Origin: a virus
Virus record (IMG/VR): IMGVR_UViG_3300030382_002306
Coordinates: 2,199-25,182 of that record
Length of the DNA stretch: 22,984 bases
Strand: one strand, 5' to 3'
This document shows, in pieces, positions 2,866-11,800 of the stretch; position 1 is the stretch's first letter; each line of letters begins with the position of its first letter. The position numbers were made by a program, and so were the translations under genes. The notes under the pieces were generated by a model. That model made no database searches. It was not told where the DNA came from and was given only the letters and a program-made list of their open reading frames with translations.

Positions 2866-5800
2866 TCCTCGCTCTCGTTATATCGCTTGTTGAACTGATC
2901 AATCACACGCTTCATCTGTTTTTCGATATGCTGCAGGCGTTTGTCTGTTTCCGCTGCGGACAGGTTCATGCTTTCCACCCGGTCGCGCTGCTCGCGGAGT
3001 GTCTTCAGTCGCTTCTCTACCGAATCAATGACGCCGTGCAGGCGCAGCTTGTCGCGGTACTCTTTGACAAACTCCACCCGCTCACGCCCGCGCAGATTAT
3101 CGCGCTCATCCACCAGTTGGTTGATCTCGTCCCGGCGGTCGTAGAACTTCGACTGATCGTCATAGGGCAGCACTTTCCCGTGCAGCTTCCGGTAGAACGG
3201 AATTTCCCGATCCTCGAGCTCAACCCCTTGCGCCCATTTCACCGCGGCGTTCGGTGCCCTGCTGGTGAAGAAGTTGTAAGCGCCGCCGCCGTAGTACCCA
3301 ATCAGGAACTGCATCACATCCGGGCTCAGGTCCACCGCACCGCTGCGGAACTCGCTACCGCCGGTCGCCTCATTCAACCCCTTCGCCAGCGCCTTGAACA
3401 TTTCCGGCGTGCTGCGGAAGTACAGCGCACTGTCGGGCTTCGGCGTGCCGAACGGCGTGTTTTCCTTGAAGATGGGGCCGCCCATGAAGTTCTCGTTCAG
3501 GGAAATGCTGGCCACCGGGCGAAGAATCGTCGGCATGATATTCTTGGCAACCAGTCCGTACAATTCCTCGGATTGCTCGAAACCAATTGGTGAGAAGCTG
3601 CCCAGGCCTGCCAATACAATATTGCTGGCGATGTCGCCCGCCGGCTTATCGCTGGCCAGCATATGCTCCATGCCAGTACCGATCACCGGGAAAATGTTGT
3701 ACCCGTATGGCAACGGGATCGTCCAGTATTCCCCGGGCTTGCCGCCCACCAGGGATTTCATAATGACGATGTTCCGCTCTTTGACGTAATCGGGCACCTT
3801 GTCCCACCAGTTCACGCCATCGTCATCATCACCGGCCACCAGGCGGTTCAGGGCTGACAGCATGAAGCCGCCCACCGCCATTCCGGCAGCAATCCTCTGA
3901 GCGGTGTTGAGACGACGCCAGACCGGGTCACCCTTCACACCGTTCAAGCGCCCCAGAGTGCGCACGAAGTTGGCCGTGCCCTGCACCGATGCGTTGGCGA
4001 ACATATACAGGGCGTTCATGGTGGTGCCCAGCTCACCCTTACGGTTGAAGTTTACGGTCATGTTCTTGGCGAGGGATGCTGCCTTGGCCCGGGGAATGCC
4101 GGCCTCGATCGCATTGACGTATGCCGACAGGCGCACGCCGTTTTCAATGGCAGAGTTGGTGTTTTCAACCCAATCGGTCACCGAGCGGAACGCGCGACGC
4201 GCCGCATTGGTGGCGCCGCCGCTGGCCATGGAGATCATGGTTTCGAGATCTTCCATCTGGCCGTCTACATCCTTCATATCGAACCAGCCGGTTTTCGCCC
4301 CATCGGCCCGGAACTGGTCGAAATGCTTTTGCCACTCGCCAGCTTTACCGTCCAGGGTCTTCCCTTTCAGGCTGGCGTTAATGGCCCGGATGGCCACCGG
4401 TACCGCTTTCAATGTCTTGGCGGCAATCTTCTTGCCTCGCGCCCTGCCATCGTCAGCAGACTGCTCGGAGGTCAGGTTGAGCAGCGCGGTCTGGATATCC
4501 CGCGAGAAGTTGGAAATCACGAACTCGGGGTTATAGCTGGTATTGAGTGAGGACATCAGCCGGGTAACCATGCTCAGCGAGCGCACCAACAGGCCGTTAT
4601 TCTCAGGGCCGATGTTACGCATGGCATTCATCAACCGCTGATCCTGCAGTTTGATATAGTAGGTTTCGCCGTTCACCTTCGTGGTGAAATACCGATCACT
4701 CATCATGGCCATGGGCACGGTTTGTTCTTCCACGCGCACCACGGTTTTCCCGGTCGCCGGATCCACCCGCTTGACCGCCTTGCGTTCTACCTCGGGATTG
4801 TCGGCCGTATAGACGCGCCAGTATCCATCGTTCGGATACGACTGCACCAGGCTCAGGAAGGCGCTGCCCACTTCGTTCTTGCGCTGACGCAGCACCGCCT
4901 CGGACAGATCGCTGATCGCGTTGGCGACGGGGGATGATGCCTTGCTCTTTCGGCCACCAGCCATCTGGGACTCTTTGCCGGCGATGGCGAAGCCCTTACC
5001 GATCTTCGGCATGGCCTCCTGCTTTTCGTCGGCAGCCCAGCCTTTGAGTGGCACGTAATGGCGATAGGATGCTTCCCAGGCGCCCAGCGTTTCTTCGTCC
5101 AGCAGACCGGCGTCCTTCAGGATTTTCCGGCGACGCTCGAGCATTTGATAGACGGAATCCGCCAACTCCTGGAACTGGTCCAGCTTGCCAGACTTCTCAA
5201 CCTGGTCGATAACCGCAGCTGCCTCGGCATTTGTCATGCCTGAGCCGCCATCCGGGAACTGATCGTTGCGCTGGGCAATAACCCGGTTCCGCTCAGGGGC
5301 GTGCTTGGCGTATAGGAACTCGTCGAGCTGAGCCAGGGAAACGTCATATTCCGACATCTTCTCGGCCAGCGGCTGAATCATGTTTTCCTGAATCAGCCGA
5401 ATATCGTTCTCCACTTTCCCGTGGAACAATTCTTCAGCCAGATAGGCATCGGCATCTTCTTCGATTTCGCCGAACCGGTCGGTGATGTTTTGCTGAACGC
5501 CCTTGAGAACAGTGAACTTGTCGGCAATCTTGCTGATCATCTTGCGCAGCAGCGTATCGCTGGGCGCGCCGAATGGTTCAGGGTCAAGATCAGGGACATC
5601 GGCGCGACTAAACCGAATATCCGCATTGTCGGGGTCGAAGGTGCCGGTGTTGCCGGTGGCGGATTTGATTTGCTCAGGGTTGAACACCACGGCCTCGCTA
5701 ATGTATCTGCTTCCAACTATTCCTCCGTCAACGATAACGCCATCATAACCCTGAGAGATAAGCCCATCTGTTAGCTCTTGTTTTGTTTTTGCGCCTGGAA

Positions 5801-8800
5801 CTTTCTTCCATAGGTCGCCGGTTCCGAATGATTTTTTAACAATCAGCGGGTTTTCCATTTTCAGGTAGACTGGCATTACATTTGCGCCACCAGATTTGCC
5901 TGATTTATGACCTGCAATGAAGTCTGCAGAATCTGCGTAACCACTTGCTACCTTGGGGTCTTGCGTAAAGTAGAAGCCTATTCCGTAATCGCCAGTGAAG
6001 TTGGTTCCGTATTCCTTCATTGAAAATTCGGAAAAATCACCGACAGTTCCGTGATACACCACCAACGGCTCGCCATTCTCATCCACCACCTTGCTGTCAC
6101 CGAACCATTTGGAAAATGCCTCTGTCTGTGTTTGGTCGGTGCGGCTGAAATAAGCCTCTGCCTGTGCAATCTCATCGTTGACGGCTTGGACGGACACAAC
6201 TGATTCATCCCAGATGACGTAGTTATGGGTGCCTTCACCCTGCCCACGGCTGGTGTTGTCGAGGTAGCGGAGGCCTGGGATGCCGACATCATTCAACTCC
6301 TGACTCGCATCTTTGGCACCGTCAGCCTTTGATGAACTGAATATGCTGTCGCGACTGTCCCGAGAAAAATATTCCTGAAGGCGATTATAGATCAGCGAGC
6401 CAGTCGGCTCATTGCCGCCTACATCTTTAGCTGTAATCTTTCTATAAGTCTCTCCAGGCAATTTTCTAAGCGCTTGCTGAACTTTTTCGGGCTGCTCACT
6501 CAATAGCGCATCTCTATCCAAGAGGTCGCTGTCGTCAGGAATCTCAACTTCGTACAAGTTTCCGCGCTCTTGCGCTGGCAGTTCTTTTATTGCCTCAGAA
6601 TAGGCCACGCTAAACGGATTCCGCTTGTCATAAAAACCCATCCCCGAAAGCGCTTTTTCAACTTCAGCCTCGCTCCAGTTCGGGTTCTTCTTTTTAACTG
6701 CGGACTCGGCAGACTCAATCTCTTGCTCGATCTCTTCGTGATTTTTCTCATAATACTTAGCATCAAGGTCGCCGATCTCGTTCTGATAGTTGTAAAGGTT
6801 TATTAGATTTCCACCCCAGCTCACGCGGCCTTGCTTTCCGGTCGCGTAGGCCCCCAAAACTCTATTAAAGGTCTGCTCTGCCTTGTTGACTGCATCTCGC
6901 TCTTGACGACTTGGCGCTTGCGAAAGCGGTCGCGCTCGCGGCACGTTTAGTCCGCGGCCAGATGAAAGCACTCGCTGATAATATTCCGCAATGCTCCGGT
7001 TCCCTGCAAAATAAAGACCCCAACCAAATGCCTGGGCCCCCTCGCCTGTGCCAATCGCTTCCAGCGAGAACTTATCAAACCGGTGCGGCGTGCCGTGATA
7101 GGCGCGGCGGAAATAGGTATCCGCCTCACTCGGCCTTGAGAATCCACCCTGCTCCACGGTTCGCTGCGCCCCTTCCAGAATCTTGAGCAGATCATTCTCG
7201 CTCATGCTGATCGTAAACCCAAGGCGACGAAGGGCGTCACGAACAGCGGTGACAATCTTCTGCCAGAGGGTTCGGTGACGTTGCTTGCCGGATTCGGCCA
7301 GGTGGGCCAGCAGTTCTTCAGCCACCACCAATCGATGCTCGCGCTTGCTGGCGTCGAAGGTGTTGCCTGGGTAGTAGGTGCGCTTGATCTCGGTGGCCTT
7401 GTCAGTTCTGGCCATATCTATGTAGACGCGATTGAGCAGCGGGATCAGCTCTTTGCCCACCATCTTACGCAGACCGTAGTGGCCAACCACTTCATGCAGG
7501 ATGACTTCTTCCAGTGCCTGGGTGTTAGGGATGCGCGGCGCCAGAACGTAGACTTCCTGATTCCAGAATACGGCACGCATATCGCCCTCGGCCTGGGCCT
7601 TGCGAATCGCTGCACGAAGATCCTGCGGGAACTCGCTGATCGAATCGGCCACAACGACACGCGGGCGATCTTTCCAGTCTCGCATGAGGTTGTTGGCGTA
7701 GGTGCGGGCCTGTTGGGCAGTGAGGGTTTCTGTTTCAGAGTCCGGGTTACGGCGGTACTCGCCATTTTTGGAAAACAGCAAGTCCTCTTGCTTGGCTATT
7801 TCGGCTCGCCGAGCATCTGGGTCGTTCGGGTCGTAACGCTTAACCTTCAGCCCTTTAGCTCTCAGTGCGTCAACAGCTTCTTTTGATGTGCCTTTGGGAA
7901 CTAGCGCCACCGAAAACTCGGACAGATCAACTGCCCGGCCAACCTTGGATTCAAAGTAAGCTGTCGGCAGGTTCCGCAGATAATCCACAAATTCTGTAAT
8001 GATGGCTCGGCTGTCGGCATCCAGGTTAAATGCCTCGTTCCAGCCTTTTCTACCCTCAGCGATCGCAGAGCTGGCGTCATCCGTGTACCCCCAGCCGTCA
8101 GCATCAAATTTGTAATAGGGCTTGAGCGCTTCCAGAGTGTCCTGCAGGCGCTTGTTGCTTTCTTCCTTGATGGCTTCCATCTGGCTGGGTGACACGATTC
8201 TGTCTCGGTTCGCCTGCACCTGCGATATGCGGCGCATTTCGGCGGCGTATGCGGAGCGCACGGAACCAGCGCCATAATTGAAGCCCTCGCCACCATGAAC
8301 CTTACGGGTCATTTCCTTGACGACATTCTCCAGATTATAGGGGCGATACTTCTTGTTTCCGGAAGGCGTGAAGCCTGCAAACATGCGCTGGCTTTTTACG
8401 ACTTCATTGAACTGATCTTTAATCCACCGCTCATATTGGCGAGCAACTGCTTTGGCGCGCAGCTTTTTGTTCAGATCCGCCTTCATCTGGCCAACATCGT
8501 AGCCGTCAGACTCTTGGTATCTTGCCGCTTTATAGGTCAACTGTGACAGGTGGCCATGACTTACACTGCCATCCTCATCAAAATAGATGTTCGCCCTGGG
8601 AGCATCTTCGCCTAGCGCCTCACGAACCTGCTTTTGCACATCTCGGTAATAGTCCTTCGCCAGCTTCATCACTCGCGGGTCGGTCTGCATGGCAAAGCGG
8701 TCAAGGCCCAACTTGGCAATCTTGCGCACAACCGGATCAACCTTCTGGCGTTTCGCCTTCGGTGCCTTGTTGCGGGACTTCAGCCAAGCGTATTGATAGG

Positions 8801-11800
8801 CCGGACTGCGAGCCATCGCCTCCATGCCGTCGCGCTCAAGGTCATCCAGGGCCGGGGTTGCAAGATCGTATTCGTTATCAAGCTTGCCCACCTGCTTCGC
8901 GTAAGCTTCCCGGTTGATTTCATACTCTGCCCGCGGGTGTCGAGGCGTGTATACATCGGCGTCAAAAGTGCGGGCTTTTGGCGATTCCAGCATGGACGCG
9001 GGGGCAAGCAAGGTGATCTCACCAAAGTCAGCAAAGCCCTGATCTGTGCGACCAACTGCCAACGATGGCGCCGCCAGGCCGCCCAACTCCAGCACATGCT
9101 CAAGGTTGGATTCGGACAGGTTGTGCGCAACGAACAGATTGCGGGGGCCGGTTCGAGAGAACCTGATATCTGGCGTGTCAGGATCAAAAGTGCCAGCGTT
9201 GTCTGTCGCTGATTTGATTTGCTCGGGGCGAAAGGCAACAACCTCCAAAAACTCGCCGGACCCTATTGATCCTCCGGCGCCATGAACAACAACGCCGTCG
9301 TAACCTTCCCCTCGCAAAAACTCTGATGCCTTTTCTGGGCTCTGTGATCGCAAGATCCTCTTGAACCTGCGATAGACATTCCCTTGCTGGCCGTCGTTGT
9401 TATTTTGACCATCGAAAATCACAAGCGGATTCTGAATAGACAAATAGGCTGCGGTTTTTGTTTTGCCAAACCTGTCGGTGTACCCAGAGTCTGCAGAGAA
9501 ATAGAAGCCCCCGCCGTAATCTCCAGCTTGACCGTGTTTCTCTCCAATCCGATCACGATGGAATGAAGTGATTGCCTCCTGCGAACCGTGGTAAACAACC
9601 AAAGGGTTGCCGCTCTCGTCTACAATCTTGCTATCACCAAACCAGCGTTTGAAAGCATCTGTTTCAGTTTGGCGAACTCCGGAGCGAGAAAACATAGGCC
9701 GGGACTCATCATCAAATGATTCCAGCTTGCGAGCCTTTTCCAAATACTGTGCGTGCGTCAGATCGCCTCGATTGACCTGCGCAATCAGGCTGGCCAGCTC
9801 GTTACCTTTGGCGAACGCTTCGGTGCTTGCCAGTTCTTCCAGCTTGCCCTTGGCTTCCGACCGGAAACCATCGGTCCACGCCTCGTCAAGCGCGGCCTTG
9901 TAGGTATCGCGGGTGGTGTGACCGTAGAAGCCACGATCATCGAAGTAACTGACACGGAACCGGCCTGGCTCGGAAGCGTCGGGCAGGAACACGGCAAACT
10001 GATTGCCGGCACCGTTCTGCAGTTGCACGCCCATCAGGTCGCCATCGGTGCGAGTCAGCAATGACTCTTTAAAGTCCTCACCACTGCGCGTGCGCATTAC
10101 CTGTTCGGCCAGGTTGGCCAGCTGCGCATTGTCCGATTCGGTGTAGAACCCGGCCAGATCATCAAACAACTCATTGACGGTGCGACGGGCGGCGGGGCTG
10201 TTACGACGGCCAAACTTGAGGACGGCCAGCACTTCGCGGTCGTCAGCAGCGCGCTCAAACGCCTTGGCGGCATCAGCCTCTTTGGATAGGTCGAGCCCTT
10301 CGGTAAGGCGGGCGCCAATGGCGTCGATAGATTCGGCGTCCCGCTTAGTCTGCTCGGCGGAGACGGGCCGGCCCTCCTGGCTTGCGTCCGCCTTCCGGCT
10401 GGCTGGAGTGGATACGAACATATCATCCTGGCCCGCAGCCATAGCTACATCGGCAGCGCGATCAGATCCGGTCAAGGTGAAGTTGTCTACCTGTTCATCG
10501 GCGGCGGCGCGCTGTTCTTCCTCGCGCTTTTGTCGGGCTTCGGCTTGCTGGACTTCTTCGCGGGCGCGGGCCTGCTCGGCCAGCTGTTCTTCGGTTTGGG
10601 ATTCGAGGTCGAGAGAAGGGGTTACTTCGTCTTGCTGGCTCTCAGGTTGTCTTCCTTGATCTGCTCCAGCGGTGTCTGGCTCAGATACTGGTTCACTTGC
10701 TCCGGGCTCTTGCCCTGGTTCAGAAGCCGGTTCGCGGCTCTGTGGTGCGCCAGTCGGTCGGCTGACGGCTGCATCTGCTCCCGCTTCATAATTCATCAAC
10801 TCCTGCTTGAGTTCGGCCACCACTTTCGAGCGGATTTCACCATCATACACCCGGCGTGCCGCTCGGTTCACCATTTCATTCAGCGCCGGCGTGGTGGTCA
10901 CACGACTGATCAAGTCCAGCGTGCGGGCGCTTTGCTGAGTGATGGTTTCGTTGGCTTCGGTGGCAATCTGGTTGCCGGCACTGGTGGCGCGGTCGGCGTT
11001 GTCGTTCAAGCTCTTAAACAGACGCTTGTCCGAGTTCAGGCGCTGGCGTAGTGAATCCAGAACCTTCAGTCGATCCTGCATCAGTGAGACTTCTTGCGGG
11101 TCATCGCCAAACAAACCACCCTGCTCTCCCTGAGCCTCAGCAAATTCAGCCGCCCGGATTTCGTTAATCAGCAGTTGTCGCTGGTATTCCGTGTCCGGCT
11201 GAACCTTCTGGAAGGCATCGGCGGCAGCTTCCTGCTGCCCTTGCTCGGCGAATGCGCCACCAATGGCAGCGCCATCTTTTTCATTCAACTGACCTGCGGT
11301 GACCATGCCAAACACATTGTCTGACAATTTCGAAAGTGATTCGCCGTCACGCACCACCTGGTTATTGGGCAGATTGAATGTGTCGCGCACCTCGCTGGTG
11401 GGTACTTCGCTATCCCGGAACACCTTGGCGACGTCAATCGGCTCGGCCTTATTGTCCGCGATGTTGTTCATAGCGGCGTCTACGCGGGCCGCGCTTACGT
11501 CCACGCCATCAGCTTCATCAATGATTTGGGCGTTGATCTCCGGTTGGCCCAGGCGCTTGGCCAGGTCTACCCGGTGATGGCCATCCGCCACGTACAGACT
11601 GCCATCCTTGCGACGATGCAGCAGAACCGAACCGGCTCGGCGATCATCCCACTTCTTGACGCCAGACAGGCGCTGATCCACGCCCTTTTCATTTACCCGG
11701 GTGCGGAACTGGTATTGCTCTGGATCCACCTTGATCTGATCAACGGGTACGCGGAACACGCCAGTACCGCTTTCTGACAGGAATTCCTCGGCGCTTGGCT

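Follow-up and report, generated by a model that had tools for sequence, protein, structure and literature searches.

The window analysed here is a stretch of 22,984 nucleotides (positions 2,199 to 25,182) of the virus record IMGVR_UViG_3300030382_002306, which comprises 25182 bases. It carries the gene of a giant polyvalent protein, P0001, in which copies of the tripeptide FS[RK] lie at the borders between modules, hereafter called seams. We describe these seams and their relation to a zincin-like metallopeptidase (MPTase) encoded in the same chain (Table 1). Above the cut-off, P0001 was matched by the Pfam domains ART-PolyVal (in three stretches), PBECR5 and LPD38, and its PHROG matches were 616, 14770, 10691 and 10089. 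It thus unites several conflict- or virion-associated domains in one large chain, as is characteristic of the polyvalent proteins of Iyer et al. 2017 (PMC5512222). The PBECR5-like region opens a stretch that an earlier, sequence-only reading had labelled an unknown helical module.

Table 1. Features of the P0001 locus; positions are those of the window, residues (res.) those of P0001.
Feature	Position	Strand	Evidence
P0001, giant polyvalent internal virion/ejection-type protein, 3380 amino acids	2862..13004	-	open reading frame, Pfam, PHROG, gene context
Seam 1, FSR, res. 1105-1107, before ART 1	9684..9692	-	sequence
ART 1, res. about 1118-1271, ART-PolyVal	9192..9653	-	match and alignment
Seam 2, FSR, res. 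1282-1284, tail of ART 1	9153..9161	-	sequence
PBECR5-like region, res. 1288-1377	8874..9143	-	Pfam PF18814, E 1.6e-15
Seam 3, FSK, res. 1744-1746, before MPTase	7767..7775	-	sequence; modelled pLDDT < 50
Zincin-like MPTase, res. about 1763-1951	7152..7718	-	alignment, AlphaFold2 mean pLDDT 81
HEVVGH (HExxxH) active-site motif, res. 1837-1842; later conserved Glu res. 1897	7479..7496	-	alignment
Seam 4, FSR, res. 1955-1957, after MPTase	7134..7142	-	low-confidence C-terminal flank of model
ART 2, res. about 1968-2282, YHGTPHRFDKF type	6159..7103	-	sequence; weak ART-PolyVal match
Seam 5, FSR, res. 2286-2288, between ART 2 and ART 3	6141..6149	-	model pLDDT about 57
ART 3, res. about 2297-2454, ART-PolyVal	5643..6116	-	Pfam; model
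Seam 6, FSR, res. 2465-2467, before C-terminal region	5604..5612	-	pLDDT of about 55 or lower in the model
LPD38 domain, res. 3065-3270, C-terminal virion-associated region	3195..3812	-	Pfam PF18857
Integrase gene, convergent to the P0001 gene	153-1505	+	PHROG 1

The sequence-only reading had listed six FSR or FSK copies at the module seams of P0001. A check against the sequence confirmed all six positions and their codons, together with two FSR copies away from seams, at residue 2213 within ART 2 and at residue 2833 in the C-terminal region. One further copy had been missed, FSK 2297, which opens ART 3 itself (FSKWFGD). The resulting nine FS[RK] copies compare with 1.0 expected, and none of 5000 shuffles reached nine. 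FSR is the most over-represented tripeptide of the protein (7 versus 0.56 expected), and an FSR-type linker has the sequence PDNADIRFSRADVPD. The copies at 1282 and 2465 occupy homologous positions, each lying in the tail (...PDIRFSR) of one of two paralogous ARTs; the six seam copies are therefore not six independent events. The FSR at 2833 (PEFVISNFSRDIQTALL) belongs to a conserved piece of the C-terminal domain that is kept in the related loci L083-L085.

For a wider sample, the ART cores of P0001 without their FSR tails were searched against IMG/VR, followed by three further ART seeds. The search yielded 237 loci, corresponding to 184 non-redundant giant ART-carrying phage proteins that share <30% of 6-mers. 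Each giant protein displays its own seam motif, which is the same at both ART ends and at other seams but unlike between phages. Examples are KSADR (L008), YQ (L016 and L052), FHK (L053), [FY][SA]LR (L059), SNR (L027), YSI (L062), NQSPLQ (L019) and FSR (L004 and L012), and the variants across phages comprise FSR/YSK, SxxR, YSLR, xQ and SNR. FSR was therefore ruled out as a universal seam: it is one class among several and marks one MPTase group only, not giant proteins in general.

The sharing of seams within a protein was quantified by comparing the four residues past the ART C-end with the 18 residues preceding the ART N-end (N-seam/C-seam test), scored with BLOSUM62 for a protein's own pair and for other proteins; tandem ARTs were left out. 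In 60 proteins the own score was 9.59 and the other score 5.61 (z = 10.4), and in 144 proteins the values were 8.68 and 5.48 (z = 13.0). For control tetrapeptides taken from outside the seam, z ranged from -1.1 to 0.9 in the 60-protein test. In the 144-protein test the signal was found only at offsets overlapping the motif, save for a weak z = 3.2 when the comparison was placed 20 residues upstream. The regions upstream of other HG[ST]-type ARTs showed no signal, in 7 proteins only. The N-seam/C-seam test replaced an earlier exact-tripeptide test, which was confounded by control tripeptides left unmasked in their own protein. Hence the seam enrichment in homologues that the sequence-only reading had proposed to look for is present in a more general form, as a motif specific to each protein rather than as FSR.

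The motif also extends beyond the ARTs. Outside them, the own-class motif was enriched over proteins of other classes in five of five classes, with p-values from 0.012 to 4e-5. An extreme array of seams is found in L183 (4933 amino acids, plus-frame open reading frame), where residues 315-3743 contain 14 further [YF]S[LI][KR] copies outside the ART seam, for example GEKYSLKEVNDRFNE, many of them spaced about 190 amino acids apart; L021 has five FS[RK]R. Thus, a short motif is shared at the domain junctions within one chain, a trait of processed viral polyproteins.

At the codon level, the seam serines of P0001 are encoded by both TCN and AGY. Among 43 seam pairs that share their tripeptide within one protein, 1.74 of 3 codons were identical compared with 1.23 for independent draws, and nucleotide identity was 0.79 versus 0.71. 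The serine codon family differed in 15 of 38 within-protein seam pairs. Mixed serine codons and a codon identity barely above that of independent draws indicate that the motif is kept mostly at the protein level. The earlier proposal of conservation in protein rather than copied DNA therefore largely stands, with room for a minor contribution of copying given the slightly raised codon identity.

Most of the giant proteins carry an HExxH or HExxxH metallopeptidase, and the class of the seam goes with the type of this MPTase. Over 128 proteins, the similarity of seams was associated with that of the MPTase at z = 9.4, versus z = 1.3 for that of the ART bordering the seam. When ART and the rest of the protein were controlled for in a partial Mantel test, the MPTase retained its correlation (r = 0.154, z = 8.3) and the ART reached z = 0.9-1.1. 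Guanine-cytosine (GC) content and amino-acid composition did not correlate with the seam, and adding both left the MPTase value little altered (z = 8.4). Pairs of proteins sharing their MPTase (>60 bits) had seam scores of 7-12 versus about 2, whatever the level of ART similarity. Even pairs sharing little beyond the MPTase (rest < 45 bits) showed a seam similarity of 7.4 versus 1.8. The seam score of the nearest neighbour was 8.5 when the neighbour was chosen by MPTase, 6.4 by the rest of the protein and 4.1 by ART, over a background of 2.35.

The same relation was seen on trees. On an MPTase tree of 110 rows the seam class required 33 changes, versus 66.1±3.0 (minimum 55) after shuffling, while the ART tree for this protein set required 62 versus 65.9±3.2; the six class labels counted here were set after the data were seen, and the Mantel and N-seam/C-seam tests use no labels. 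All 20 members of one supported MPTase clade, of the HExGHxxLE type, have Gln seams, versus 8 of 90 proteins elsewhere (Fisher 7e-16). Individual branches of the MPTase tree should not be over-read because it rests on few columns and many of its forks are unresolved; the Mantel test is independent of this tree. Sequence logos gave I-R-[FY]-S-[RK] for seams with the MPTase type of the window (HExxxH..GL), I-L-x-Q for the Gln type (Q 96%), I-[RT]-[KR]-S-x-x-R for the GHEhhH type and I-R-Y-S-[LI]-R for the HAL[KR] type. In each, conservation sits on or to the left of the last Arg/Lys or Gln and is weaker to the right. These results indicate that it is the MPTase, not the adjoining ART, with which the seam motif varies. 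Site specificity follows the encoded protease, as in processed viral polyproteins.

A second HExxH type (GSLAHEWWHALDNYF) was observed in L016, L028, L036, L073, L075, L113, L166, L188, L212, L218 and L233. Its recurrence across giant proteins whose seams fall into different classes makes a role as seam protease unlikely.

The MPTase and its flanks were also examined by modelling. In an alignment of 19 sequences, H103, E104, H108 and E163 are invariant, which corresponds to the HExxH/HExxxH helix and the Glu on a later helix of zincin-like MPTases. The AlphaFold2 model of residues 1735-1965, built from these sequences, had a mean predicted local distance difference test (pLDDT) of 81. Its order of helices and strands is that published for polyvalent MPTases: an N-terminal helix (29-40), a three-stranded sheet (48-52, 77-80 and 83-87) and two C-terminal helices (94-109 with HEVVGH and 154-171 with E163). 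The model falls below a pLDDT of 50 at local residues 1-21, which hold FSK 1744, and at 222-231, which include most of FSR 1955. In a model of the ART 3 segment (40 sequences, pLDDT 78), the two seams lie in blocks at about 57 and at 55 and below. All four modelled seams thus fall in low-confidence linkers, as accessible sites would, in models of isolated segments that leave burial in the full chain possible.

In some phages the seams and the MPTase are encoded by separate genes. In L082, L092 and L198 the ART open reading frame has SxxR seams and lacks HExxH, and a matching GHEhhH-type MPTase is found on a neighbouring open reading frame. Likewise, in L113 and L178 Gln seams adjoin an open reading frame with a Gln-type MPTase. 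The matches in these five phages suggest that the code belongs to the phage as a whole and that the MPTase may act in trans. Split genes account for part of the proteins that have matching seams and no MPTase of their own, and part is left over.

Close relatives of P0001 differ mainly in the middle. L083 is 88-89% identical to P0001 at both ends and different between them; it keeps a HEVVGHYGLRKMLG peptidase with FSK just after it, about where P0001 has seam 4. L085 is 66% identical at the C-terminal part, contains no HExxH and has one FSR left elsewhere. The FSR of seam 6, at the junction to the C-terminal region, is kept in L083 as well as L084 and is missing from L085. The alike ends and different middle cassettes of L083 and L085 compared with P0001 indicate that effector modules are exchanged between conserved ends. 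In L084, an FSR also occurs inside the accessory HEWFHSLDNYFSRERG peptidase motif itself (residues about 1421-1433), probably by chance. Among named isolates, looked at after the main tests, F116, USP_25 and USP_18 (FSR) and Dolichospermum Dfl-JY45 (FSR/FAR) agree with the association, as do Limnohabitans DC33 and Caulobacter JessA, whose upstream seams LFNQ and SLTQ occur together with MPTases of the Gln type. F116, a laboratory phage of Pseudomonas, carries FSR at residues 521 and 683 of p60 (gene F116p60), flanking the ART, and has an MPTase of its own. For Y7 and Y11 (YSQ) the fit is only partial, and among the isolates examined crAss, Mx1 and Tunturi_5 had no assignable MPTase.

The genes upstream of P0001 on the same strand encode internal virion, structural and tail proteins. 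An integrase gene is also present, which makes a temperate phage probable. By PHROG, the C-terminal third of P0001 connects with DarB-like proteins and with giant phage proteins of unknown function, and its N-terminal region is ParB-like. A weak DUF1015/ParB-like signal (YVADGHHR) was noted at residues 431-487 (window about 11544-11714, minus strand), comparable to the ParB domains of DdrB-like proteins. A near-DNA search in phages returned a single 59-base match.

We consider it likely that the zincin-like MPTase in the same chain recognises, and most probably cleaves, the FS[RK] seams, and that related giant proteins are organised likewise with specificities of their own. P0001 would then be a phage polyprotein of effectors, whose MPTase would cut the flexible linkers between modules at FS[RK] and so release the ARTs, the PBECR-type nuclease and the MPTase itself from the virion-associated C-terminal part. 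Each MPTase lineage would have its own site, shared by all seams of one phage and co-evolving with it. Because conservation lies left of the right-most conserved residue and fades to its right, the cut may fall directly after this residue (FSR|, SLR|, SxxR| and xQ|). Cleavage could take place both in cis and in trans. Processing of polyvalent chains by the MPTase, before or after injection, was proposed by Iyer et al. 2017 (PMC5512222), and as that prediction is independent of the seam data we count it in favour. The sequence-only reading had suggested a linker recognised by an effector-freeing protease; the direction of that suggestion is supported, with the MPTase of the same or a neighbouring protein as the likely protease.

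The literature is compatible with processing at any of three times: prior to packaging, inside the head or following ejection. According to Iyer 2017 (PMC5512222), P1 DdrB undergoes processing ahead of packaging, and the N4 virion RNA polymerase, which has an MPTase-like domain, is packaged unprocessed. A giant DarB-like protein of podovirus JC1 was found in the virion by mass spectrometry (PMC9144972), which we also count in favour of the MPTase reading.

Several observations weigh against processing by the MPTase. No cleavage product has been seen, and the N4 polymerase is packaged intact. In the partial Mantel test an independent, weaker correlation with the seam persists for the remainder of the protein (z = 4.4), and in about one quarter of the proteins the seams fit no class. 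A Foldseek search with the MPTase model found no solved fold in the PDB at E <= 0.001. L084 keeps the junction FSR with only an accessory HEWFH-type motif, which makes the set L083-L085 suggestive only. Finally, the match of seams is independent of HExxH in the same open reading frame, so some cases need an MPTase in trans, and none was found for L008, L059 and L095. For these three, which have matching seams and no recognised MPTase at the locus, the MPTase may be encoded at another place in the genome, or a different recogniser may be at work.

The data show recognition and co-evolution rather than hydrolysis, and the seams are short and flank folded modules. They might accordingly be docking or assembly motifs that are bound by the MPTase domain, or by a co-inherited neighbour, and left uncut, serving compact folding in the head or threading through the tail. 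The N4 polymerase, packaged intact despite its HExxH domain, would suit such a role. We regard it as unlikely, as the intact HExxxH and Glu of the zincin make a non-catalytic function less economical, and every seam class ends at Arg/Lys or Gln, resembling a P1 rule. The threading partner offered by the sequence-only reading in place of a protease does not predict that the seam depends on the MPTase clade. A somewhat less probable alternative is that a prohead or host protease cuts the seams and that the MPTase clade is only a marker of lineage. Prohead proteases do cut internal head proteins elsewhere (SPN3US, P1), and the seam correlation retained by the rest of the protein is in line with this. 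A host protease, however, would not need a distinct site for each phage; the seam is uncorrelated with GC or composition and barely correlated with the adjacent ART, and pairs with little but the MPTase in common still resemble each other in their seams. That the seams are relics of module shuffling, with modules copied along with their flanks and alike through recent duplication, seems very improbable to us. The slightly raised codon likeness, the regular repeats of L183 and the paralogous ART tails at seams 2 and 6 of P0001 are of the kind that copying would leave. Yet single-ART proteins carry the same motif at two non-homologous ends, serine codon families are often unlike, and copying leaves unexplained why the motif tracks the MPTase clade rather than the ART.

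The seam pattern is real and general, and new as a code; the case for cleavage by the MPTase is strong but unproved. Extending it, we lean towards the view that in many phage lineages the injected effector arsenals are MPTase-processed polyproteins. Their code would act at the level of the phage, in cis and in trans, and would have been switched often (FS[RK], YSLR, SxxR, SNR, LxQ); all seams would follow each switch, and an incoming module would have to acquire the local code.

The association of seam and MPTase gives a specific and cheaply testable site for every such phage. Module borders become readable from sequence alone, and the fragments acting inside the host become predictable. If cleavage is true, these phages would hold a family of small proteases whose specificities differ and can be predicted from sequence, and DNA phages would have a co-evolving polyprotein code, something that to our knowledge has so far been seen mainly in RNA viruses.

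The polyvalent proteins of Iyer 2017 (PMC5512222) are of the same class as P0001, with ART-PolyVal, PBECR, LPD38 and MPTase in one chain. A word search of that paper gave no FSR, linker or tripeptide, no report of a cleavage site, of a seam motif or of its co-variation with the MPTase was found in the open-licence papers searched, and a search of the crAss-phage zincin literature returned nothing useful. New here are the site that is recognised, the fact that it is specific to each protein, and the way it varies together with the MPTase clade.

Viral polyproteins such as those cut by the picornavirus 3C and nidovirus main proteases carry a protease within the chain and short junction sites that co-evolve with it. 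The phage giants likewise combine one protease per chain with short linear junction sites that are alike within a virus, and the LxQ-S seam class resembles the Gln sites of picornavirus 3C and nidoviruses by convergence. They differ in belonging to DNA phages, in having a metallopeptidase instead of a chymotrypsin-like enzyme and in carrying injected effectors instead of replication proteins, and here cleavage is a presumed step. In RHS toxins (DPxGL), a built-in protease frees the effector from its carrier at a fixed short motif. There a single conserved motif serves a single toxin tip, whereas the chains of the phage giants each contain many seams, whose motifs fall into many classes and change along with the protease. 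The prohead proteases T4 gp21, HK97 gp4 and P1 Pro are likewise phage proteases that trim internal head proteins at short sites, but they are encoded by a separate gene and belong to another family, whereas the seams described here go with the MPTase that the giant protein itself carries.

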